Shown here: in pieces, positions 45,190-57,577 of the stretch
Layout of the letters: each line of letters begins with the position of its first letter
Numbering within the stretch: position 1 is the stretch's first letter
NCBI RefSeq assembly: GCF_016888515.1
Contig: NZ_JAFEJK010000001.1
Span: 1-64,000, forward strand
Reading direction: 5' to 3'
From: Shimia biformata
GTDB lineage: Bacteria; Pseudomonadota; Alphaproteobacteria; Rhodobacterales; Rhodobacteraceae
Length of the DNA: 64,000 nucleotides
Program-made: the position numbers and the translations under genes
Notes under the pieces: model-generated
Seen by the model: only the letters and a program-made list of their open reading frames with translations
What the model was told of the DNA's origin: nothing
Databases searched by the model: none

Positions 45190-46008
45190 TCAGTCGCCCA
45201 GCTTGGCGTGGACCTCATCAAGGTCGATCTCGCCGATGGGCATCTTGTTCGACGGGTCTTCGAAGTCATATTTGAACAGGTCGAAATCGCGTTTGTAGAT
45301 TTCATATACCAAGTGCATCGACAGATCGTCGAAATAGTCCTCGACGGGATGAGCGCGCTTGGGTCCGTGACCTTCGGATTCATTGAAACGCGGCACCTTG
45401 GCCAAATCGACGGAATGCGCCGTGTCGATGGCATCCAGCACCTGCTGCATCCCGTCGTTGAAACTTTCGGTCCAGAAGATCTTGTCGTAGCGCCCGCCAT
45501 TTACAATGAAAGTCGAAACATGGCCCGACATCGCCGACCAATGAATGTCAGGCTCCATCGGACGGCGCCAGCGGATGGTATCGCGGGCAAACAGAAGGAA
45601 GCGGCGGAAGCTTTGAATCTGGTCGAACTCGGCCTTGCCGTCATCGCCACCGACTTCGATCCCGTATTTCTGAATCAGCATCGGCACCAGATTTCCGCGA
45701 TAGCGTTTTCCGTTGCGCTGAATGCCGCAAATCTTGTCGAAAAACGAGCTGAGGATACGGGTATAAGGGTTGCGAACGCAGGTGAAGGCATAGGACTTGT
45801 GCTGGGTCACATTTTCGGTGATCAGCGGCTGGCTGTCCTCCAGCGCCCATTTGTGCATCCCGTCCTTGGCGTCGTGAATATCACCATCGAAATAGCGGCC
45901 ATGGTCAGAGTAATACATGATCTGCCCGATGGTCGAGCAGGCGCATTTCGGGACGACCCTGTAAACGACGCTTTCGGACTCAGTCATCCAGGTTCCGGGA
46001 AATCCCAT
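45190..46008 (-). CDS. Sulfotransferase family 2 protein
   Basis: 272 residues from ATG 46008 (behind GGAGG; an ATG at 46026 is possible). The PAPS 5'-phosphosulfate loop is seen as PKCACSTIGQ (Lys21) and the 3'-phosphate loop as CVRNPYTRILSSFFDK. It probably transfers sulfate to a glycan. It is divergent from a GT14-type glycosyltransferase, suggesting the two act on the same surface polysaccharide or glycoconjugate. Confidence 0.87.
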   Translation of the reverse strand: MGFPGTWMTESESVVYRVVPKCACSTIGQIMYYSDHGRYFDGDIHDAKDGMHKWALEDSQPLITENVTQHKSYAFTCVRNPYTRILSSFFDKICGIQRNGKRYRGNLVPMLIQKYGIEVGGDDGKAEFDQIQSFRRFLLFARDTIRWRRPMEPDIHWSAMSGHVSTFIVNGGRYDKIFWTESFNDGMQQVLDAIDTAHSVDLAKVPRFNESEGHGPKRAHPVEDYFDDLSMHLVYEIYKRDFDLFKYDFEDPSNKMPIGEIDLDEVHAKLGD

Positions 46009-46151
46009 ATTGCGATGCCTCCGCATTCAGACCGCTTGGCAGCGGTTTCGAATTGATTTGCAAACAAAAAAGCAAACAATACTGGTTTATTCAATCACCG
46101 TTCCTGATAATCAGGAAACAATCGAGCAGAACAAGGACCGGCGTTTCCCAG

Positions 46152-47729
46152 ATGGCAAGAATTGCATATATCCTTCTATGCCATAAGGATCCCGAGTCGA
46201 TCATCCTGCAAGCGCAACGCCTGACCGCGACAGGCGACTATATTGCGATCCATTTCGACGCCAGTGCAAAGCCCGAACACTATACCCTGATCCGAGACGC
46301 GCTGGACGACAATCCCAACGTCACCTTTGCCAGAAAGCGGATCAAATGCGGCTGGGGGGAATGGTCTCTGGTCCAGGCCACGATCAACGCGCTCGAAGTT
46401 GCTGTCGAGACCTTCCCGCGCGCCACGCATTTCTACATGCTGTCCGGCGACTGCATGGCAATCAAATCGTCGGAATACGTGCATGACTTCCTAGATGAAA
46501 ACGACGCGGATTTCATCGAAAGCTTCGACTATTTCGACAGCGACTGGATCAAGACCGGCTGGAAGGAAGAGCGGCTGATCTATCGCCACTGGTTTAATGA
46601 GCGCACCCAGAAACGCCGGTTTTACTGGATGTTCCATCTTCAGAAGAAACTGGGACTGACGCGCAAGATTCCCGATGACATTCAGGTCATGATCGGCAGC
46701 CAATGGTGGTGCCTGCGCCGACAGACGATCGAGTGGATCCTGGACTTCATCGCTCGCCGCAAGGATGTGATGCGCTTTTTCCGCACCACATGGATCCCGG
46801 ACGAAACCTTTTTCCAGACTTTGGTGCCCCATCTGATCCCGGAAAGCGAGATTCGCAGGCGAACACTGACATTCCTGATGTTCACCGACTACGGGATGCC
46901 GCTGACCTTCTACAACGACCACTACGACCTGCTTCTGAATCAGGATTTCCTGTTTGCCCGCAAGATCAGCCCCGAGGCCCTTGAGCTGAAAGAGAGGTTG
47001 GGGCAGCTTTATGCCGCCAAGGGCGTCAAATTCGAGATTTCCGGCGAGGGGCCGAACCTGTTCAAGTTCCTGACCGGTCGGGGGCGGATCGGGAGGCGAT
47101 TTGCGTCGCGGTTCTGGGAATCTGAATCCACTCTGGGCCGCAACCGAGAACTGCTGATCATCGTCTGCAAGAAATGGCACGTGGCCAAGCGCCTTCTTTG
47201 GCGCATCCACGAGGAAACCGGCATTCCGGCCATCGAATACCTGTTCAATGAAGACGGCACATCGCTGCCTGACCTTGGCGGGATCCAGTCGACCCTGGAA
47301 AAGCGCACCCGCCATCGCCGCGCATTGACGCGGATGCTGTTTGACTTCTACACCACTGACCGGCTGCTGATCTGCATGGATTCCAGTTCGATCGACCTGT
47401 TACACGACTTTTTCGGAGATCGCTCCAAGACCAGGCTGCTTGAGATCCAGTGCGATTTCACCGATGACTACCTGATCGGCCATGCGACCCGGATCGGGCT
47501 TGCCGGGGAGCGGACGCCGCAGGACACGATCGAACGGCTTTTGCCAACGATCCGGCAGGATATCGTGCTGGAAAGCGACCACATCCGCGACGCGAATTTT
47601 GAAAACCACGCGCGTTTACGCCAGAGCGACGACATCGACGATCGCGCCGCGGCACTGATGGATTTTCTGTCAGTTGGTGAAGACCGGGCTCGTCGGATCG
47701 CCGACCTGCCGCACCTGTTTGACGACTAA
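46152..47729 (+). CDS. Core-2/I-branching-type glycosyltransferase (GT14) with C-terminal extension
   Basis: 525 residues. The N-terminal 290 residues match beta-1,6-N-acetylglucosaminyltransferase-like GT14: YILLCHKDPE, GWGEWSLVQATINAL and FYMLSGDCMAIKS. The C-terminal ~200 residues (from about 320) form an additional, unassigned domain, a combination seen in Rhodobacterales. Cytosolic, no signal. Divergent from the sulfotransferase over a 143-bp gap. Confidence 0.85.
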   Translation: MARIAYILLCHKDPESIILQAQRLTATGDYIAIHFDASAKPEHYTLIRDALDDNPNVTFARKRIKCGWGEWSLVQATINALEVAVETFPRATHFYMLSGDCMAIKSSEYVHDFLDENDADFIESFDYFDSDWIKTGWKEERLIYRHWFNERTQKRRFYWMFHLQKKLGLTRKIPDDIQVMIGSQWWCLRRQTIEWILDFIARRKDVMRFFRTTWIPDETFFQTLVPHLIPESEIRRRTLTFLMFTDYGMPLTFYNDHYDLLLNQDFLFARKISPEALELKERLGQLYAAKGVKFEISGEGPNLFKFLTGRGRIGRRFASRFWESESTLGRNRELLIIVCKKWHVAKRLLWRIHEETGIPAIEYLFNEDGTSLPDLGGIQSTLEKRTRHRRALTRMLFDFYTTDRLLICMDSSSIDLLHDFFGDRSKTRLLEIQCDFTDDYLIGHATRIGLAGERTPQDTIERLLPTIRQDIVLESDHIRDANFENHARLRQSDDIDDRAAALMDFLSVGEDRARRIADLPHLFDD

Positions 47730-47741
47730 GTCCCGGCCCGA

Positions 47742-48491
47742 TCAGATGGTGATGCCGCCATCTACCTGAAGTGTCTGGCCAGTGATGAACCTGCCATCTT
47801 CGCTGGCAAGGAAAGCGCAGATGCCGGCGATTTCTTCGGGCTTTCCCAAACGGCCTGACGGCTGGCGGCTGATGAAGAAATCCCATGCCTTGTCGCGACT
47901 GCCGAACTGCTCGGCCAGTTCCTCGATCCTCTGGTGCAGGCTGGGGCTGTCGACTGTGCCGGGGCAGACCGCATTGCAACGCAGCCCCTCGGCCACATAA
48001 TCCGCTGCCATTGCTTTGGTCAGACCGATGACACCGCCTTTGGCTGCGCCGTATGCAACTCGCTTCGGAAATCCCTTCAACGACGAAGCAACCGAGGCGA
48101 TGAAGGTCAGCGCGCCGCCATGGGCACGCATCTTTGGCACTGCGCCTGCGGCCACGTTGTAGGCACTGTCCAGCGTGATCGCCAAGGACCGGCGCCAGTC
48201 GGCGGGGCTGCATTCCTCGATCGTGCCCTGATGAACATAGCCAACCGCGTGAACCAGCGTATCGATCCGCTCAAACCCGGCGAAATAGGCCTGCACCGCG
48301 TCATAATCGGTAGCATCAAGCGCCGCGGTTTCGCCACCGAAACCGGCAAGAAGTTCGGCGTTCAGATCCGAGGCAAAAACCGTCGCGCCCTCGGCACGCA
48401 GGCGGTCCGCCACGGCGCGGCCGATGCCCTGACCGGCAGCAGTCACCACGGCGACCTGCCCTGTCAAACGACCTTTGTCAGTGGTTGTCAC
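47742..48491 (-). CDS. SDR dehydrogenase, BDH2 / keto-deoxy-sugar-acid dehydrogenase-like
   Basis: 249 residues. Rossmann motif TAAGQGIG (17-24), catalytic Ser133/Tyr147/Lys151 (IASVASS, YGAAK). [14 protein letters not shown] and [15 protein letters not shown] closely follow the BDH2 branch, which includes bacterial 2-keto-3-deoxy-L-fuconate and L-rhamnonate 4-dehydrogenases. In this operon it would oxidise the IlvD/Edd product to a 2,4-diketo-3-deoxy acid. Its start overlaps the dehydratase stop by 14 bases. Exact substrate unknown. Confidence 0.88.
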
Positions 48492-50259
48492 GCGGTATCC
48501 CCTTGGTTTGCGCGATGCGCTGGTACTTGACCGCCGGCTTCAGGACCATGCCCTTGTCGAACTGGTCCACGATTCCGCGTTGGATTTCCTGCCACGGGGT
48601 CTGATGCTCGGGGAAACGTGGCGCGGTGTCGGCCTCGTATGTCGCACGGCGTTCGGCCAGTTCTTCATCCGAGATCTTGATGTCGGCGCGCCCAGTCTTG
48701 AGGTCGATCCGCAGGATGTCCCCGGTCCGCACCAGCGCCAGACCTCCACCAACCGCCGCCTCGGGACAGGCGTTCAGGATCGAGGGGCTGCCCGAAGTGC
48801 CGGACTGCCGCCCGTCACCGATACAGGGCAATTCGTCGATGCCACGTTTGATAAGTGCGGCGGGTGGTTGCATGTTCACCACTTCGGCACCGCCGGGATA
48901 GCCAACCGGCCCGGTGCCACGCACGACCAGCACGCAGGTTTCGTCAATCTCAAGCGATGGATCGTCGATGCGGTGGTGGTAGTCTTCGGGGCCGTCGAAA
49001 ACGATGGCACGGCCTTCAAAGGCGTTGGGATCATCTGGGTTCGAAAGGTAACGCTTGCGGAAATTCTCGGAGATGACCGATGTCTTCATAATCGCGCTGT
49101 CAAACAAAGTGCCCTTCAGGTTCAGGAACCCGGCCGCCGGTTTCAACGGCTCGCCAAAGGGCCGGATCACGTCATGGTTTGTGACGGCAGCATCGGCATA
49201 GACCGTGGCCACCGGCTGCCCGGTCACCGTGACAGCGCCGGGATGCGGCAGGGCGGACGCGCCCAGCAACTCGGCAAAGATGCCCGGTACGCCGCCGGCG
49301 CGATGGAAATCCTCGCCCAGGTATTTGCCTGCCGGTTGAAGGTTTGTCAGAAGCGGAATCTCGTGTCCGATCTCTTGCCAGTCGTCATTGGTCAGCTCGA
49401 TCCCCAAATGCGCCGCCACCGCGTTCAGATGGATCGGAGCGTTGGTCGAACCGCCGATGGCCGAGTTTACGACAATGGCGTTCTCGAACGCCTCGCGGGT
49501 CATGATATCGGACGGCTTCAGGTCCTCATGCACCATCTCGACGATGCGTCGCCCGGTTTCATAGGACATCTGACCCCGCTCTCGATAAGGCGCGGGAATT
49601 GCGGCGCTGCCCGGCAGCTGCATGCCCAGCGCTTCGGCCAGCGAATTCATCGTCGAAGCGGTGCCCATCGTGTTGCAATAACCCACCGACGGCGCAGAGG
49701 CTGCGGCAATGTCCATGAACTCGTCATAGTCGATCTCGCCCGCCGCGTGATCCTTGCGCGCGGCCCAGATCGCGGTGCCCGATCCCGCTCGCTCCCCTTT
49801 GTGCCAGCCGTTCAGCATCGGACCGACCGACAGAGCGATAGCAGGAATATTGACCGTGGCCGCCGCCATCAGCAGCGCAGGCGTGGTCTTGTCGCAGCCA
49901 ATTGTCAGGACAACCCCGTCAATCGGGTACCCATAAAGGCTTTCCACCAGCCCGAGATAGGCCAGGTTCCGATCCAGTGCCGCGGTCGGCCGCTTGCCGG
50001 TTTCCTGGATCGGATGCACCGGAAACTCGAAACAGATGCCGCCGGCCGCAACGATCCCTTCGCGCACGCGTTTGGCCAACTCAATGTGGTGGCGGTTGCA
50101 GGGGCTCAGGTCTGACCCGGTCTGGGCGATCCCGATAATCGGCTTGCCCGACTGCAACTCTTCCCGCGTGATCCCGAAGTTCAGGTAGCGCTCGATATAC
50201 AGCGCGGTCATGCCGGGATTATCGGGGTTGTTGAACCATTTTTGCGAGCGAAGGGTCAT
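48478..50259 (-). CDS. IlvD/Edd-family sugar-acid dehydratase (xylonate/arabonate type)
   Basis: 593 residues. Three cluster cysteines are in place: Cys54 ([10 protein letters not shown]), Cys122 ([10 protein letters not shown]) and Cys195 ([11 protein letters not shown]). Long stretches such as [30 protein letters not shown] and [21 protein letters not shown] follow the D-xylonate dehydratase XylD of Caulobacter rather than Edd or IlvD. It dehydrates an aldonate to a 2-keto-3-deoxy acid. Chain length of the substrate (C5 or C6) is not visible from sequence. Third enzyme step upstream of SDR and FAH in the operon logic. Confidence 0.93.
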
Positions 50260-50269
50260 TACGGAATCC

Positions 50270-51112
50270 TCAGAGTGAAATCACGGTCTGACTTTGCTCT
50301 GACAGCCCGTCAATGCCAAGAGAAACAACATCGCCAGGATTGAGCCAGACCGGGGGCGTCATGCCTGCCCCTACACCCGGAGGCGTGCCGGTGCAAATCA
50401 GATCCCCCGGTTCCAGCCGCAGAAACTCGCTCAGGTAGCTGACAATCGTGGCGACATCGAAGATCATCGTGTCTGTATTGCCGGTCTGCATCCGCTTGCC
50501 GTTTACGTCCAGCCACATGCCCAGCGCCTTGGCATCATCAACCTCGTCCCCGGTCACGATCCACGGACCGGTCGGGCAGAAATTGGGAAAACTCTTGCCC
50601 TTGGCCCATTGACCCGATCGCTCCATCTGCCATGCGCGCTCGGACACGTCATTGACCAAGGTATAACCCAGCACGTGATCCAGCGCTTCCTCTTTCGAGA
50701 TGTTCAATGCGGGCTTGCCGATCACCACGCCCAGCTCGACCTCCCAGTCAAGCTTGGTCATTTTGGGGCTGTAAAGCAGCGGATCGTTGGGCGCGCAGAA
50801 GGTGCCCGACGCCTTGTTGAACAGGATCGGTTCTTCGGGGATCGGCAGACCGGCTTCGGCCGCATGGTCGGAATAGTTCAGCCCGATGCAATAGATATTG
50901 CGCGGCTGTGTCATCGGCGTACCGATGCGCGCACCATCAGTCTCGACCGGGGGCAGCGCCGCAAAATCGACGCCGGAAAGTGTCTCAATAAGCGTTGCAA
51001 ATGTCTCGGGACCGAAATCGGCGATCAGCCCGCTGACATCACGCGCGGTCCCGTCTGCACCCATTACGCAGGGGGTTTCCTGACCTTCGGCGCCAATACG
51101 AAGAAGTTTCAT
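50270..51112 (-). CDS. FAH-family hydrolase (2,4-diketo-3-deoxy sugar-acid hydrolase-like)
   Basis: 280 residues from ATG 51112. The metal triad of the fumarylacetoacetate hydrolase fold is visible in [12 protein letters not shown] with [24 protein letters not shown] and [14 protein letters not shown]. Relatives hydrolyse 2,4-diketo-3-deoxy-L-fuconate or L-rhamnonate to pyruvate and lactate, or act as ureidoglycolate lyase. The enolase-like stop overlaps its start (ATGA), so they are coupled. In this operon a cleavage to pyruvate plus a hydroxy acid is likely. Confidence 0.9.
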
Positions 51113-52425
51113 GCGGCTGTTTCCTTTCCGTTTTTCCGGCCCCACCAGGTCCGCGCCAATGCCGCGCCCCCCGCAAAGCTGCCCGATCCGGGTTCATCCT
51201 GGATGCGCAGGCATTCGTTCCACTTGACCATCCGCTCGGACCGGGTGAACGACCCAACCTTGAGCTGGCCAGCGCCCAGTGCCGTCGCCAGATGTGCGAT
51301 CGACACGTCCTCAGTCTCGCCCGACCGGGCCGAAACGATTGCGCCCCACCCGTGTTTGCGCGCCGCACGGAAGGTCGCAAGCGATTCACTGACTGTCCCA
51401 GCCTGATTCACTTTCACAAGAACTGCATTGCAGGCCCCTGACGCTGCAGCCTGCTCGACCAAGGCGGCGTTGGTGACAAGGTAATCGTCCCCAATAATCT
51501 GCACACGTTCACCGAAGCGGCGGGTGAACTCGACCATTCCGGTTGTGTCATCCTCGCCCACCGGGTCTTCGATCGAGGCGATGGGATAGGCATCCAGCCA
51601 ACCACCCAGCATGTCGATCAGCTGGCCCGAGTCCATCTCGCGGTCTTCCAGGGCAAGACGATAGCGACCATCTTTGCCAAATTCCGACGCAGCCACGTCA
51701 AGCGAGATTACGACACGGTCACCGGGCGTCTCCCCCGCCTTTTCGATGGCGGCCACCAGCGTTTCCAGCGCCTCTTCGTTGCTGTCAAAAACCGGCCACC
51801 AGCCACCTTCATCAGCAACACCCGCCATCTTGCCCTTTTGCGCCATGATCGAACCGGCGGCGAAATAGACCTCGTTGGTGACTTCCATAACCTCGTCAAA
51901 CGAGGATGCGCCCGGCACCATGATCATGAAATCCTGAATATCGACGCGTCGTCCGGCATGCGCGCCGCCACCAAAAATCTGGATCTCTGGCAAGGGGATG
52001 GCGGGAGTGGTGCCTTCCATTTCCGCGACATAGCGCCAGAGCGGAAGCCGGGCCGAAGAAGCAGCCGCATGTAACACAGCCAGCGACGTTGCCACGGTCG
52101 CGTTTCCGCCAAGGTTTTCCTTCAGCGGCGAAGGATCAAGCGCAAGAATAGCATCGTCGATGCCCTGCTGATCGCGCACATCCCGCCCTACCAACGCCGG
52201 AGCAATCACCTCATCGACCGCCGCAAGCGCCCGCGCCACGTTCTTGCCGCTCAGGGCCGAACCGCCATCGCGCAGGTCAATCGCCTCACGGGTGCCTCGG
52301 GATGCGCCAGCGGGAGCAATTGCCCGGCCGAGGCTGCCGTCAGACAGGGAAATGTCGACCTCGACAGTCGGATTCCCGCGCGAGTCCCAGACCCGGCGGC
52401 TTTTGACCTTGGTGATAATGCTCAA
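51109..52425 (-). CDS. Enolase paralogue with altered active site
   Basis: 438 residues, full-length enolase fold. Metal ligands Asp243, Glu286 and Asp313 are kept, as are His156, Glu206, Lys338, Arg367, Ser368 and Lys401. Compared with yeast enolase, Thr40 is Arg43 (GASRG), Glu168 is Asp165 (IQDFM) and His373 is Ala366 (VSARSGETED). It lies in a sugar-acid operon, not next to pyrG as eno usually does, and overlaps its neighbours on both sides by ATGA. So it is probably a specialised 2-phosphoglycerate-like dehydratase, not the housekeeping enzyme. Substrate is inference. Confidence 0.9.
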   Translation of the reverse strand: MSIITKVKSRRVWDSRGNPTVEVDISLSDGSLGRAIAPAGASRGTREAIDLRDGGSALSGKNVARALAAVDEVIAPALVGRDVRDQQGIDDAILALDPSPLKENLGGNATVATSLAVLHAAASSARLPLWRYVAEMEGTTPAIPLPEIQIFGGGAHAGRRVDIQDFMIMVPGASSFDEVMEVTNEVYFAAGSIMAQKGKMAGVADEGGWWPVFDSNEEALETLVAAIEKAGETPGDRVVISLDVAASEFGKDGRYRLALEDREMDSGQLIDMLGGWLDAYPIASIEDPVGEDDTTGMVEFTRRFGERVQIIGDDYLVTNAALVEQAAASGACNAVLVKVNQAGTVSESLATFRAARKHGWGAIVSARSGETEDVSIAHLATALGAGQLKVGSFTRSERMVKWNECLRIQDEPGSGSFAGGAALARTWWGRKNGKETAA

Positions 52426-53435
52426 CGATCCAGTTCCTTCAATTGTCCGGCCACGGTTTCGACGAAACCCGCCAGCGTGTTCTTGGGTGAATTGATCAAT
52501 GGCGGCGCGATCATCCGCAGCCGCGCCTTGCCCGGAGGAGTCAGGTATTCCACCGGTGATTTGCCGTCGATCCGCGCCAGCATCAAAGCCGGCAACAGCG
52601 CCGCGATCCGCGCTTCAAGACGCGCCACCGATTCCCAGTCGACATGCCGTTCGTAGGCTGCCCAGAACGCCAGCACCTCTTCGAGATAGGCGTCGCGCAT
52701 GACAGGCAGATGGATGGCTTTCAGGACAAGGTGATTGAGGCAGAACGCCGGGTCGAAAGACGCGTCACCCATCGTTGCGCATTCGGCGTCCAGAACCACC
52801 GGACGACCGCCACGGAACAGGATGTTCTTGGGACTGACGTCACCGTGAACAAGTACCTTGTCGTCGGCATACAACATGTCTGCCAGGCCGGTCAGCGCGG
52901 CCCTTAGCCCCTCGTGGCGGGTCGCCGTGAAGGTCAGGTAGGGTTCAATCCTGAGCGCCCGAAAGTCATCCCGGTTCTGAAACGGGGCCGAGTCAAACCC
53001 CGGCCGGGCCGAAGCTGCATGAATGCGACCGATCAGGTCGCCAACTGCTGCCGCTTCACCTTTGGGCGGCACTTTGTCCAGCAGCACCGACTTCCAAAGA
53101 TAGATCGCATCGCCGTCGAGGAACTCCATGGCAAAGCCGTGCTGCTCTTCGCTACGTCCATAAAGGCGAACCGCGCTGTCTGGCGCGATTTCCGATGCCA
53201 CCCGCAGCCATTCGTATTCGGCGCGGTTGCGATGTACCGGGGCGTTCCAGTCCTCGGCCACTTTCAGCTTGGGCAACGCGAATTTCACACAGATCCGGCG
53301 CCCTGCAACGTCGACTTTCGCGATGTCGGACGCCACCCCGCCGGTCAAAGGCGTGACCTCGGTCACATCATCCGGCCGCGCCACCCCAAGCGCCGCAACA
53401 AGGCGTTTGCATCTTTCGTCGAGCGCCACACTCAT
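52422..53435 (-). CDS. APH-family (aminoglycoside phosphotransferase-like) kinase
   Basis: 337 residues from ATG 53435. Nucleotide-site Lys51 (CVKF), Brenner-type VHGDVSPKNILF (His197, Asp199, Asn204) and the metal-binding Asp216 in VLDAECATMGD are present, so it should be an active small-molecule kinase. It is the first gene of the five-gene operon, overlapping the enolase paralogue (ATGA). The substrate is probably a pathway intermediate such as glycerate or a sugar acid, not an antibiotic (inference). Confidence 0.88.
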   Translation of the reverse strand: MSVALDERCKRLVAALGVARPDDVTEVTPLTGGVASDIAKVDVAGRRICVKFALPKLKVAEDWNAPVHRNRAEYEWLRVASEIAPDSAVRLYGRSEEQHGFAMEFLDGDAIYLWKSVLLDKVPPKGEAAAVGDLIGRIHAASARPGFDSAPFQNRDDFRALRIEPYLTFTATRHEGLRAALTGLADMLYADDKVLVHGDVSPKNILFRGGRPVVLDAECATMGDASFDPAFCLNHLVLKAIHLPVMRDAYLEEVLAFWAAYERHVDWESVARLEARIAALLPALMLARIDGKSPVEYLTPPGKARLRMIAPPLINSPKNTLAGFVETVAGQLKELDR

Positions 53436-53488: not shown

Positions 53489-53502
53489 TGTTCACGTGAA
53501 CA
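53489..53502. promoter_or_regulatory. Candidate LacI-family operator
   Basis: A perfect 14-bp palindrome TGTTCACGTGAACA with a central CG, typical of LacI-family operators. It lies 54 bp upstream of the kinase start and 135 bp upstream of the divergent ATP-grasp gene. The regulator itself is not in the window. Confidence 0.6.
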
Positions 53503-53636
53503 ATTACGAAGTCGAAAACACTGAGTCAACTGCGTTGTGAAATCTTTTTGCTGAAAACGAAGGCGACCGTCGGTCGTTTGACGCCTCGGCGTTCGGCAGG
53601 TGTTGCCTTTTGTCACGACTCGGCCATGATCTGATT

Positions 53637-55055
53637 ATGACCCAGATATTTGACGAAATGACAACGGAAGACGGGTCCCTCAGAGACCCTTATGCCGAAA
53701 TCGGGCGCTGGTTCGGCAACGAAGATGTTTCACGACTGCGCGCCAAACAGCGCGAGGCGGAAGAAGTCTTTCGCCTGACCGGGATTACCTTCAACGTCTA
53801 TGGCAAAGCGGAAGCCGAGGAACGGCTGATCCCCTTTGACATTGTGCCCCGCGTGATCTCGCATCGCGAATGGCAAAAACTGTCGCGCGGCATCGAACAG
53901 CGTGTCCGCGCCATCAACGCCTTCCTGCACGACATCTATAACCGGCGCGAGATCGTGAAAGCAGGCCGCCTGCCGGAGGAGATGATCTCGCAGAACGAAG
54001 CCTTTCTTCCGCAGATGCTGGGTGTGACACCGCCAGGACACGTCTATACCCATATCGTCGGGATCGACCTTGTGCGCACCGGGCCGGATGATTTCTTCGT
54101 GCTTGAGGACAACGCCCGCACCCCATCCGGGGTCAGCTACATGCTGGAAAATCGCGAGACCATGCTCAAGATGTTCCCCGAACTGTTCACCGCCACGCGG
54201 GTGCAGCCGGTGTCGGACTATCCGCGCAACCTGCGCCGGTCACTGGCCGCCTGCGCGCCCGCGATGACAACCGATGAGCCAACCGTGGCGGTGCTGACGC
54301 CGGGGATTTATAACTCGGCCTATTACGAACATGCCTTCCTTGCCGACCAGATGGGCGCGGAACTTGTCGAAGGCCATGACCTTCGGGTTGTCGACGGGCG
54401 CGTCGCGATGCGCACCACACGCGGTTACAAGCCGATCGACGTGCTGTATCGCCGCGTCGACGACGAATACCTCGACCCGCTGAACTTCAATCCCAATAGC
54501 GCGCTTGGCGTGCCGGGCATCATGGATGTGTATCGCGCCGGGGGCATTACCATCGCCAACGCACCCGGCACGGGGATTGCCGATGACAAGGCGATCTATT
54601 CCTACATGCCCGATATCGTCGAATTCTATACCGGCGAAAAAGCGATCCTTCAGAATGTTCCAACATGGCGTTGTTCCGATCCTGAGTCGCTGAAATACGT
54701 GCTGGACAACCTCGCGGAGTTGGTTGTGAAAGAGGTGCATGGCTCGGGCGGATACGGTATGCTGATTGGCCCGACCTCGTCCAAACGGGAACTGGCGACC
54801 TTCCGCAAGAAGCTTCAGGCAAACCCCGGCAACTATATCGCCCAGCCGACGCTGGCGCTATCGACTGTGCCGATCTTCACCAACAAGGGGTTGGCGCCGC
54901 GCCACGTGGACCTGCGTCCCTTCGTGCTTGTCTCGCCCGAGGGGATCAACATCACCCCCGGCGGCCTGACCCGTGTGGCGCTGAAGAAAGGGTCGCTTGT
55001 GGTGAACTCGTCCCAAGGTGGCGGCACCAAGGACACCTGGGTGCTGGAGGACTGA
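53637..55055 (+). CDS. Circularly permuted ATP-grasp protein (Anbu operon)
   Basis: 472 residues from ATG 53637. Typical type 2 circularly permuted ATP-grasp (COG2308): FDIVPRVISHREWQ, DIYNRREIVKAG, FVLEDNARTPSGVSYM, VKEVHGSGGYGML and HVDLRPFVLV. ATP-grasp members ligate a carboxylate to an amine, so a peptide-bond-like ligation is predicted. It is the first gene of four that run on to the Anbu peptidase; the next gene starts five bases after its stop. Confidence 0.93.
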   Translation: MTQIFDEMTTEDGSLRDPYAEIGRWFGNEDVSRLRAKQREAEEVFRLTGITFNVYGKAEAEERLIPFDIVPRVISHREWQKLSRGIEQRVRAINAFLHDIYNRREIVKAGRLPEEMISQNEAFLPQMLGVTPPGHVYTHIVGIDLVRTGPDDFFVLEDNARTPSGVSYMLENRETMLKMFPELFTATRVQPVSDYPRNLRRSLAACAPAMTTDEPTVAVLTPGIYNSAYYEHAFLADQMGAELVEGHDLRVVDGRVAMRTTRGYKPIDVLYRRVDDEYLDPLNFNPNSALGVPGIMDVYRAGGITIANAPGTGIADDKAIYSYMPDIVEFYTGEKAILQNVPTWRCSDPESLKYVLDNLAELVVKEVHGSGGYGMLIGPTSSKRELATFRKKLQANPGNYIAQPTLALSTVPIFTNKGLAPRHVDLRPFVLVSPEGINITPGGLTRVALKKGSLVVNSSQGGGTKDTWVLED

Positions 55056-55059
55056 CGCG

Positions 55060-56001
55060 ATGCTGGGAAAAACCGCTGGCGGGCTGTTCTGGATGGCACG
55101 TTATCTTGAACGCGCAGAGAACACGACACGCCTGCTGGAAACCGGGCAACGGATCGCGCTGACACGGTCCCACGCCTCGAATGATGAATGGGCGTCGATC
55201 ATGCAGACCGCCGGGGTTGCGGCGGGTTTTGCAGACAAGCATGGCGAGGTGACAAAGGACGCCACCATCGACTGGATGCTGCGCGATATCGACAACCCAT
55301 CCTCGGTGCGCGCCGTGATGAAACAGGCGCGCGACAATGCCCGCCTTGTGCGCACCGCGCTGACCCACGAGGTCTGGGCCGCAATCAACGCCGGCTGGAT
55401 GCGCATCGACGAGGCGCTGGGCCGCAAAGTCAATGAACGCGACCTGCCTGCGGTGCTGGACATGATCCGGCAATCGACGGCCCTTGCCCGCGGAGCAACC
55501 CACGGCACCATGTTGCGCAACGATATCTATGATTTCCTGCGACTGGGCACTTTCATCGAGCGCGCCGACAACACCGGCCGAATCCTGGACGTAAAGTACT
55601 ACGTCCTATTGCCGACTTCTTTTTCGGTCGGTTCTTCGCTGGACAATGTCCAATGGGACACGATCCTTCGGTCGGTCGGAGCCGGCGGCGGCTATCGCAT
55701 GACCCACGGCCAACGCACCGGTCCATCCGAGATTGCCCAGTTTATGATCCTCGACCAGCGCATGCCGCGTTCTCTGCGTTTCTGCTGTTCCAAGATCGCA
55801 TCAAACCTTGATTTTCTTGAAAAGGACTATGGCGAAGAAAAACCATCCGGCAGCCTTGCCCGGACCCTGCATGGCCGCTTCAAGGGGCTGACGATAGCCG
55901 AGGTCTTTGACCACGGCCTGCATGAATACATCGAGGATTTCCTGCGCGATCTGGGCGCCCTGAGCAGCCGGATCGAAATAGACTATCGGTTCTACGAGTG
56001 A
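55060..56001 (+). CDS. Alpha-E domain protein (Anbu operon)
   Basis: 313 residues, almost wholly alpha-helical. The start MLGKTAGGLFWMARYLERAENTTRLLE, the FLRLGTFIERADNTGRILD motif and the ending SRIEIDYRFYE are hallmarks of the COG2307 alpha-E family. In known operons it is always paired with the ATP-grasp protein and may be its partner. It starts four bases after the previous stop. Biochemical activity unknown. Confidence 0.92.
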   Translation: MLGKTAGGLFWMARYLERAENTTRLLETGQRIALTRSHASNDEWASIMQTAGVAAGFADKHGEVTKDATIDWMLRDIDNPSSVRAVMKQARDNARLVRTALTHEVWAAINAGWMRIDEALGRKVNERDLPAVLDMIRQSTALARGATHGTMLRNDIYDFLRLGTFIERADNTGRILDVKYYVLLPTSFSVGSSLDNVQWDTILRSVGAGGGYRMTHGQRTGPSEIAQFMILDQRMPRSLRFCCSKIASNLDFLEKDYGEEKPSGSLARTLHGRFKGLTIAEVFDHGLHEYIEDFLRDLGALSSRIEIDYRFYE

Positions 56002-56008
56002 GGGCGCC

Positions 56009-56806
56009 ATGAAACTGCGAATCCGACACAGCACCCGATATGATTTCGATGCCGCCGTTCCCTTTGGCCTGCAACAATTGCGTAAGACTCCCAAAAGCTT
56101 TCGCAGCCAGAAAGTTCTGGAATGGCGGACCGAAGTGACCGGTGGACAAAAAGAACTGAGTTTCGACGACTACCACCGCAACAAGGTCGAACTGATAAGC
56201 TTCGAATCCGGTACTCGGCATATCGAACTGCTCAGCGAGGGCGTGGTCGAACTGACCGACACCCATGGTGTCACCGGTCCACACGAAGGCACGACGCCGC
56301 TATGGTTGTTCGAGCGCGCAACCGACCTGACCAAACCGGGAAAACTCTCGCGCGAGCTGGTGCGCGGAATCGACGGCAGCAGCGAACTCGACCGGCTGCA
56401 CGCGCTGTCGGCGGAACTGCATGCTCGGGTGGAATACACCATCGGCGCGTCCCATCCCGACTGGACGACCGAAAAGGTCCTTGAAGAAGGCAAAGGGGTC
56501 TGCCAGGACCATGCTCATGCGTTCCTGACCTGTGCCCGCCTGATGGGGCACCCGGCGCGCTATGTCTCGGGGTATTTGATGATGGACGGGGTTCAGGACC
56601 AGGACGCGATGCATGCCTGGGCCGAAGCCCATGTTGATGGGCTGGGGTGGGTTGGCTTCGACGTGTCGAACGGCATATCCCCGGATGCGCGTTACGTGCG
56701 CGTTGCGACGGGACTGGACTATTCTCAGGCCGCTCCTGTATTGGGCACAAGACTCGGCGATGCGGGCGAAACCCTGTCTGTGGCGCTGGAAGTCGCGCAG
56801 CAATAA
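56009..56806 (+). CDS. Transglutaminase-like cysteine protease (Anbu operon)
   Basis: 265 residues. N-terminal beta domain with RIRHSTRYDFDAAVPFGLQQLR, then the transglutaminase core with catalytic Cys in GKGVCQDHAH, His in MHAWAEAHVDG and Asp in GFDVSN. No signal peptide, so it acts in the cytosol. Family members in this context are thought to cleave or transfer peptide bonds. Seven-base gap from the alpha-E gene. Confidence 0.93.
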   Translation: MKLRIRHSTRYDFDAAVPFGLQQLRKTPKSFRSQKVLEWRTEVTGGQKELSFDDYHRNKVELISFESGTRHIELLSEGVVELTDTHGVTGPHEGTTPLWLFERATDLTKPGKLSRELVRGIDGSSELDRLHALSAELHARVEYTIGASHPDWTTEKVLEEGKGVCQDHAHAFLTCARLMGHPARYVSGYLMMDGVQDQDAMHAWAEAHVDGLGWVGFDVSNGISPDARYVRVATGLDYSQAAPVLGTRLGDAGETLSVALEVAQQ

Positions 56807-56842
56807 GGCGCCCGCAGGCGTGTTCAGGAACAGGAATCGGCC

Positions 56843-57577
56843 ATGACCTATGGCGTTGGTATCCGGCTAAATAAGGGGCTCGTGTTCATGTCGGACACGC
56901 GCACGAACGCCGGAGTCGACAATATCTCGACCTTCCGCAAGATGTTCAGCTGGGACGTGCCCGGAGAGCGCGCGATCACATTGATGACGGCCGGTAACCT
57001 GGCCACGACTCAGGCAGTGGTGTCGATACTGGAAGAGCGGATGAAAGCCCCCGCGGACCGCGCGCCCTCGATGTTCGAAGCGCCGACCATGTTCCAGGTC
57101 GCGCGGATCGTGGCCGCAACCCTGAAAGAGGTAATCGCCACGCACGACAAGGCTGGTCAGCAGGCGGATTCGGCCTTTCACGCGACGATGATCCTGGGCG
57201 GCCAGATATCCGGCGGACCATCACGCCTGTTTCTGATCTACCCGGAGGGCAACTTCATCGAAGCCGGCGCAGAAACGCCCTTCTTCCAGATCGGCGAGAC
57301 CAAGTATGGCCGCCCGATTCTAGTGCGGGCCTACGACCCGGACATGACGTTCGAGCAGGCGGTCAAACTTCTGTTGGTCAGTTTTGATTCGACAATCAAG
57401 GCCAACCTTTCAGTCGGGGCGCCACTAGATGCCGAACTTTACACCGAAGACAGTTTGACAACCGGCCGCCAGATCCGCTTTCACGCCACCGATCCCTATT
57501 TCGAAACTATCTCGAACAGCTGGGGCGACGCCCTGAAAGACGCGCTGGACCAAATGCCGGATTTCAAACTGGACTAG
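56843..57577 (+). CDS. Anbu, proteasome-like Ntn peptidase
   Basis: 244 residues. After Met removal the N-terminus is Thr1 (TYGVGIRL), with Asp17 in SDTRTNAGVDNISTFRKM and Lys32 as the proteasome-like active-site set. That stretch is the near-invariant signature of Anbu (ancestral beta subunit, COG3484), a relative of HslV and proteasome beta subunits. It assembles as a helical or ring-like oligomer by literature; its substrates are unknown. It is last in the ATP-grasp/alpha-E/transglutaminase operon. Confidence 0.95.
   Translation: MTYGVGIRLNKGLVFMSDTRTNAGVDNISTFRKMFSWDVPGERAITLMTAGNLATTQAVVSILEERMKAPADRAPSMFEAPTMFQVARIVAATLKEVIATHDKAGQQADSAFHATMILGGQISGGPSRLFLIYPEGNFIEAGAETPFFQIGETKYGRPILVRAYDPDMTFEQAVKLLLVSFDSTIKANLSVGAPLDAELYTEDSLTTGRQIRFHATDPYFETISNSWGDALKDALDQMPDFKLD

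Follow-up and report, generated by a model that had tools for sequence, protein, structure and literature searches.

A conserved kinase-enolase pair in a sugar-acid operon of Shimia biformata and its putative route to phosphoenolpyruvate

The window analyzed here, a 64,000-nucleotide stretch of Shimia biformata DNA (contig NZ_JAFEJK010000001.1, positions 1 to 64,000), carries an operon encoding a kinase, an enolase paralogue, a FAH-family hydrolase, an IlvD/Edd-family dehydratase and a BDH2-like short-chain dehydrogenase/reductase (SDR) (Table 1). The conserved unit at this locus is the kinase-enolase pair, which recurs independently of the other three genes, and its co-occurrence in many genomes points to an undescribed two-step conversion of a small hydroxy acid, such as glycerate, to phosphoenolpyruvate (PEP). 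The five open reading frames (ORFs) run from 53435 to 47742, all on the minus strand, with neighbours overlapping or 10 bp apart. Gene families were assigned with Pfam and NCBIfam profiles and checked against solved relatives in the PDB, and all five ORFs and families named in an earlier sequence-only reading were recovered. That reading had described ATGA or near overlaps between the genes. Enolase and hydrolase share a 4-nt ATGA overlap, a 10-nt gap separates hydrolase from dehydratase, dehydratase and SDR share 14 nt, and the 4-nt overlap of kinase and enolase is TTGA and not ATGA. It had overlooked the palindrome TGTTCACGTGAACA, the altered enolase residues and the conservation of the pair apart from the other three genes. 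A chance grouping of the five genes is ruled out by the gene overlaps and by the conserved pair.

Table 1. Features of the kinase-enolase operon in the window
Feature	Position	Strand	Match or location
APH-fold small-molecule kinase, putative hydroxy-acid 2-kinase, 337 aa	52422..53435	-	PF01636 61.4 bits (cut-off 23.2)
Enolase paralogue, 438 aa, TTG start, altered active site D165 and A366 (for Glu and His)	51109..52425	-	TIGR01060 456.6 bits (cut-off 300)
FAH-family C-C hydrolase, putative 2,4-diketo-3-deoxy sugar-acid hydrolase	50270..51112	-	PF01557
IlvD/Edd-family sugar-acid dehydratase	48478..50259	-	PRK13017 1039.8 bits (cut-off 684)
BDH2-like SDR, putative 2-keto-3-deoxy-acid 4-dehydrogenase, GTG start	47742..48491	-	best PDB matches 8Y11/8XWK/8Y4J
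14-bp palindrome TGTTCACGTGAACA, probably the operator of this operon for a LacI-family protein	53489..53502	.	53 nt ahead of the kinase start codon

The relatives of the operon were analyzed in three sets. In the enolase-seeded set, which comprises the best 80 of 175 relatives from a genome scan with the paralogue, the kinase was present in 76 of the 80 loci, immediately before the enolase in 75 and approximately 7 kb from it in L003. Counts were made by tblastn where possible; the sets produced by a simple ORF finder contain wrong-frame calls. A close FAH hydrolase (at least 60% identity over at least 250 residues, which excludes a partial match in L003 of 65% over 118 residues) was found in 24/80 loci, a close SDR (at least 55%) in 16/80, both in 15/80 and a close dehydratase in 3/80 (L014, L017 and L028). 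The remaining 56 loci, some of them on short contigs, lacked a close FAH hydrolase. The exact five-gene set was rejected as a conserved unit: the search for it elsewhere found the contiguous set in none of the fetched loci, and all five genes occurred together in L014 only, with the dehydratase approximately 9 kb off.

A search with the kinase alone, which avoids the enolase bias, matched (E 1e-45) 38 of the 385 class genomes and 8 of the 120 family genomes, the window's genome being included in both. In 38 of the 44 other kinase-bearing genomes, all of which were fetched, the paralogue lay in the fetched stretch (directly downstream of the kinase in 35), and in three more (G298, G080 and G157, the last at a contig end) it was found elsewhere in the genome, giving 41/44. 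The plasmid set comprised 13 loci fetched of 1120 matched records, reduced to 12 by exclusion of L092, which holds an ordinary enolase. The kinase was present in all 12, one of them from an actinobacterium. Kinase and enolase were adjacent in that order in five, enolase preceded an adjacent kinase in Rhodococcus, and the two genes were approximately 3-7 kb apart in the other six.

The kinase belongs to the APH superfamily, with PF01636 above its cut-off and the HGDxxxxN motif followed by a downstream Asp motif, and its HGDxSPKN and DAE residues were invariant in 32 aligned sequences. By profile, its nearest solved relatives were methylthioribose kinase 2OLC and 2PYW. No NCBIfam model matched it above the model's cut-off and no match was found among the records of the phage collection. 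It is not a member of glycerate kinase classes I-III (PF02595, MOFRL/PF05161 and PRK-type PF00485), its sole Pfam match at E 0.001 being PF01636. These three classes are mutually unrelated, as stated in an excerpt of PMC2063504.

The enolase paralogue gave a full-length match to the curated enolase model TIGR01060 and, like ordinary enolase (phosphopyruvate hydratase, EC 4.2.1.11), retains the catalytic Lys, the general-acid Glu and the metal ligands. Unlike it, the paralogue, which is 42% identical to the ordinary enolase of the same genome, carries Asp at an active-site Glu (Glu163 in Mycobacterium tuberculosis numbering, residue 168 of yeast enolase) and Ala at the His of SHRSGETED. Counted by locus, which makes the counts independent, Asp was found in 80/80 and Ala in 79/79 readable enolase-seeded loci, Asp in 38/38 and Ala in 37/37 readable kinase-seeded loci, and both in 12/12 plasmid paralogues; Glu and His were both kept in 23/23 ordinary enolases compared. 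The M. tuberculosis numbering was transferred through the PDB alignment, chain 7CLK being taken as that enolase from its N-terminal sequence. Glu163 of the M. tuberculosis enzyme contacts the carboxylate and its Ala mutant is non-functional, according to an excerpt of PMC10619443; the change in the paralogue is to Asp. Further differences were Trp for Ala at position 210 of the window protein (149 of 151 alignment rows) and Ala for Gly at position 204 (151/151). These rows (120 after removal of near-duplicates; truncated L078 was dropped and some loci were missed by the script) were assigned to the paralogue group by the Ala itself and so are not independent evidence for it.

Among the 80 enolase-seeded relatives Glu206, Asp243 and Glu286 were present in all, Asp313/314 in 79/79 readable and Lys338 in 78/79 readable sequences, and the phosphate-binding Arg/Ser were also retained in the readable loci. 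The paralogue of L080, with Asn for the catalytic Lys, was the only such case among the 79 and is possibly inactive or the result of a sequencing error. A tree of 23 paralogues, picked by hand for spread from the 120 rows, and 23 ordinary enolases (46 rows) placed the two groups on either side of one branch with support of 100/98. Under midpoint rooting the divergent paralogues L091 and L156 lay nearer the ordinary side, and a single origin of the paralogue on a rooted tree is therefore not demonstrated. Judged from these alignments, the paralogue is an enolase group distinct from ordinary enolase and remodelled at substrate-contacting positions. Annotated plasmid records name its members 'phosphopyruvate hydratase'.

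The other three genes would account for the sugar-acid half of the operon. Their assignment in the sequence-only reading to a 2,4-diketo-3-deoxy sugar-acid route is supported, in that a dehydratase, a 4-dehydrogenase and a FAH hydrolase would fit such a route. The best PDB match of the hydrolase was 8GSR, an L-2,4-diketo-3-deoxyrhamnonate hydrolase (1.8e-84), and those of the dehydratase were 7M3K (named galactonate dehydratase) and 5OYN. The best matches of the SDR, ahead of human BDH2 (2AG5), are named L-KDF 4-dehydrogenase (L-KDFDH) in the excerpts of PMC11199699 used here. In the PDB alignment the window SDR keeps the three Arg to which these excerpts assign substrate binding, the published Arg numbers differing from our count by a constant 4, assumed to be a numbering offset. 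According to the same excerpts L-KDFDH uses 2-keto-3-deoxy-L-galactonate (L-KDGal) approximately 20 times better than 2-keto-3-deoxy-D-gluconate (D-KDGlu), with kcat/Km of 1480 and 75. Cleavage of L-KDGal would release L-glycerate.

The upstream half of the putative pathway is, by family membership, a variant of the known non-phosphorylating L-fucose/L-rhamnonate 2,4-diketo-3-deoxy route (FucC-FucF-FucG; L-DKDR hydrolase), with the same reaction logic and a homologous 4-dehydrogenase and hydrolase. That route is not known to include a kinase-enolase pair. The known L-fucose pathway ends in pyruvate and lactate (excerpts of PMC11199699), and the window dehydratase is instead of the IlvD/Edd family. 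Many of the hydrolase-bearing loci continue with genes for a sugar ABC transporter and additional SDRs. One of these SDRs, in L084, had D-xylose 1-dehydrogenase as its best match (332 bits, under the cut-off of 400), which fits a route starting with aldose oxidation.

The surroundings of the pair in other genomes suggest PEP and a C3 hydroxy acid. Three plasmid clusters of Rhizobium combine the pair with genes for a LacI regulator, a branched-chain-type ABC transporter, a cupin, a VOC-family protein (an HpaD-like extradiol dioxygenase in the one scanned), a FAH hydrolase, a 2-hydroxyacid dehydrogenase and, approximately 6.5 kb from the enolase, PEP carboxylase. Loci of Paraburkholderia, Cupriavidus and Pararhizobium have many of these genes in common; the Pararhizobium stretch has a partial PEP carboxylase match at its edge, and the enzyme was not found in the fetched Paraburkholderia and Cupriavidus stretches. 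A Rhodococcus opacus plasmid carries the corresponding gene set together with HsaA/HsaB-like flavin hydroxylase genes, and its PEP carboxylase lies approximately 19 kb from the enolase. The link of the pair to PEP carboxylase across phyla is the best evidence for PEP as the product of the pair, which we regard as quite likely.

Other surroundings differ. In 14 of the 44 kinase-seeded loci a gene matching 2-hydroxyacid dehydrogenase, as judged by its 31-38% identity to the Rhizobium gene, lay no more than 2.5 kb from the kinase, TTT transporter genes 72-82% alike adjoin the pair in L019, L083 and L084, and some loci carry aromatic-degradation genes. Directly upstream of the pair in L027 are genes for a galactarate/altronate-type dehydratase and a protein resembling tartronate-semialdehyde reductase (176 bits, below the cut-off of 341), and a TRAP transporter also precedes the pair there. 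The proposal that the pair is a specific add-on to one aldonate pathway is not supported, given these loci and the 56 without a close FAH hydrolase. A recurrent soil and plant cluster around the pair (L085, L087, L089, L091/L108 and L094), spread over alpha- and betaproteobacteria and Rhodococcus, combines a cupin, a VOC dioxygenase, a carboxymuconolactone-decarboxylase family protein, an alcohol dehydrogenase, a FAH hydrolase and a 2-hydroxyacid dehydrogenase, and its substrate is probably aromatic. The genes serA and serC stand beside the pair on the opposite strand in L060, L062, L064, L075, L076 and L080 (SerA 70-72% identical to that of L076); a link to serine/glycerate metabolism and a merely conserved housekeeping neighbourhood are both possible, and this arrangement was not used as evidence.

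Such diverse neighbours, together with the two changed active-site residues, could also mean that the pair stands outside the catabolic line of the operon and acts on a side product or signal, or that the enolase is non-catalytic with a structural or regulatory role. This is very unlikely, since every readable enolase-seeded locus except L080 preserves the catalytic Lys, the general-acid Glu, the phosphate-binding Arg/Ser and the metal ligands, and the window enolase overlaps the kinase and hydrolase genes. Another explanation is a different leaving group: the kinase would phosphorylate a 3-substituted lactate (for example 3-aryloxy or 3-sulfo) and the paralogue would release the substituent to yield PEP. 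The remodelled site (His lost, a shorter acid, and Trp at 210) is consistent with this, as are the ring-cleaving dioxygenase and PEP carboxylase genes of the Rhizobium and Rhodococcus clusters, the flavin hydroxylase genes of Rhodococcus, and the TTT and TRAP transporters, which suggest imported organic acids. On the other hand, the sugar-acid variant would need to yield the same substituted lactate, none of the five genes of the window operon was recognized as acting on released sulfite or phenol, and no neighbouring gene names a substrate. We consider a different leaving group rather improbable.

A simple function for the kinase would be that of a substitute glycerate kinase. An ordinary enolase is encoded in the window genome, as is a class II (MOFRL) glycerate kinase, the latter beside glycerol genes (the gene names there are our own reading). 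Among 30 of the 44 pair genomes, 30/30 had a further enolase with 41-49% identity to the window paralogue, of the ordinary type in all 21 read, so that the paralogue was never the sole enolase. The MOFRL kinase was present in 29 of these 30 genomes and in 24 of 25 genomes without the APH-fold kinase; the 25 were hand-picked, with smaller or less complete genomes omitted, and the 30 were picked from the 44, so that neither sample is random. As a simple explanation, a role as substitute glycerate kinase was rejected on these equal frequencies, and the pair therefore neither replaces the ordinary enzymes nor depends on their absence. Since the host has both, a plain conversion of D-glycerate to D-2-phosphoglycerate would not need the pair. 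Moreover, a kinase making ordinary D-2-phosphoglycerate should often occur alone, and it did so in only 3/44 genomes; the kinase product thus presumably needs the altered enolase. The pair probably handles a phospho-acid outside the reach of the housekeeping enzymes.

The same evidence bears on a D-glycerate version, in which the kinase is a new-fold glycerate 2-kinase forming ordinary D-2-phosphoglycerate, on which the paralogue acts with normal activity as a dedicated, inducible enolase. It would be supplied by neighbours of the 2-hydroxyacid dehydrogenase and tartronate-semialdehyde-reductase type and agrees with the PEP carboxylase neighbours, with the general-acid Glu, Lys and metal ligands and above-cut-off TIGR01060 match of the paralogue, and with the habit of catabolic clusters of carrying spare central genes, perhaps including PEP carboxylase itself. 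However, an ordinary-type second enolase and a MOFRL kinase are nearly always present already, the near-constant company of the paralogue, even when unlinked, is odd for a kinase with an ordinary product, and the replacement of Glu by Asp and of His by Ala is invariant. This version is unlikely. The conversion of glycerate to PEP proposed in the sequence-only reading stands in part: the neighbours elsewhere suggest PEP and a C3 acid, but the paralogue is not an ordinary enolase and the host already has an enolase and a class II glycerate kinase.

Regulation of the pair was examined through the palindrome TGTTCACGTGAACA, which has a single exact copy in the 3.94 Mb window genome. An exact copy preceded the kinase by no more than 300 bp in 28/76 enolase-seeded, 3/12 plasmid and 4/44 kinase-seeded loci (the sets share some loci), and four other exact copies were present in these 2.34 Mb. 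Many of these loci also have a LacI-family gene close to the kinase (protein cluster 2, 27 loci), and its orthologue in the window genome (56% identity) lies at contig position 140876-141790, approximately 77 kb beyond the window. These data indicate that TGTTCACGTGAACA is a probable LacI-family operator of the operon. Because it precedes the kinase also where no close FAH hydrolase, SDR or dehydratase was found (e.g. L019, L021, L023, L029 and L043), the inducer is probably linked to the substrate of the kinase-enolase pair.

From the observed gene order, families, conservation, co-occurrence, residue changes and conserved palindrome we infer a route with all its substrates, its stereochemistry and PEP as its product. 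The IlvD/Edd enzyme would dehydrate a hexonate-type sugar acid, the SDR would oxidize C4 of the dehydrated acid and the FAH enzyme would hydrolyze the product, yielding pyruvate together with a C3 hydroxy acid, for which glycerate is the simplest candidate. The kinase would then phosphorylate the 2-hydroxyl of this acid and the paralogue would eliminate the C3 group of the 2-phospho acid to give PEP. Kinase and paralogue would thus form a self-contained plug-in, attached to different upstream pathways that release a like hydroxy acid. The ordinary enolase and glycerate kinase kept beside the pair, and the remodelling of the paralogue at its substrate contacts, argue that the phosphorylated intermediate is probably other than plain D-2-phosphoglycerate. 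L-glycerate is not known to be a substrate of the ordinary D-specific enzymes; this would account for both the dedicated kinase and the reshaped enolase, and L-2-phosphoglycerate formed from L-glycerate is the single favoured candidate. If PEP is the product, L-glycerate, D-glycerate and a 3-substituted lactate are roughly comparable as starting compounds, with L-glycerate slightly ahead. The favoured explanation as a whole, a hexonate-type route joined to the plug-in with L-2-phosphoglycerate as favoured intermediate, is plausible but falls short of probable. A more tentative proposal is that of a new enolase subfamily and an APH-fold L-glycerate 2-kinase, by which L-2-phosphoglycerate would be dehydrated (or a larger C3 group eliminated) to PEP, so that acids of the L-glycerate type would enter central metabolism directly, without isomerization.

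Several observations weigh against this explanation. The kinase was not detected in L033, L048, L081 and L082 (4/80 enolase-seeded loci, at least one of them on a short contig), and a close linked dehydratase was absent from 21 of the 24 close-FAH loci. In G341, G004 and G320 (3/44) a kinase homologue of 42-44% identity occurs with an ordinary enolase only and may represent a neighbouring kinase subfamily with another role. PEP carboxylase near the enolase was seen in the soil and plant variant only and not in the fetched marine relatives. An extra central gene in a catabolic cluster may do no more than increase flux; this would account for an enolase copy without a new substrate, but not for the invariant residue changes. 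The neighbours related to D-2-hydroxyacid dehydrogenase and tartronate-semialdehyde reductase belong to families that yield D-hydroxy acids in characterized cases, a point against the L-glycerate favoured here. The hydrolase scored 360 bits against NF053535, the L-rhamnonate-pathway hydrolase equivalog, under the cut-off of 500, although this was its best NCBIfam match. Finally, the substrate preference of L-KDFDH is that of an enzyme of another organism, whose preferred substrate, the 6-deoxy acid L-KDF, would lead to lactate (excerpts of PMC11199699).

A glycerate 2-kinase plus enolase segment occurs in the serine cycle and in the glucarate/galactarate pathways, and the window pair would likewise take glycerate to PEP through a 2-phospho intermediate. 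It differs in its kinase, an APH-family protein that belongs to none of classes I, II (MOFRL) and III, and in its enolase, which is of a separate group with altered active site and co-occurs with this kinase. No description of the pair was found in the titles and abstract openings of the open-licence papers searched, a weak negative. Enolase is usually treated as a one-reaction enzyme. If the proposed route is correct, a second enolase reaction with its own line of inheritance would exist in bacteria of more than one phylum, together with a glycerate-type kinase of a fourth kind, forming a plug-in route to PEP from sugar acids and other hydroxy acids, and genome-scale models would mis-assign both genes.

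The operon is flanked by genes of other kinds. At 53610-57577, on the plus strand and divergent from the operon, lie in a row genes for a circularly permuted ATP-grasp protein, an Alpha-E domain protein, a transglutaminase-like protein and a proteasome-subunit-type protein. Next to its downstream end, at 45190-47729, are a sulfotransferase-family gene on the minus strand and a divergent gene on the plus strand whose product has Core-2/I-branching and DUF5928 domains.

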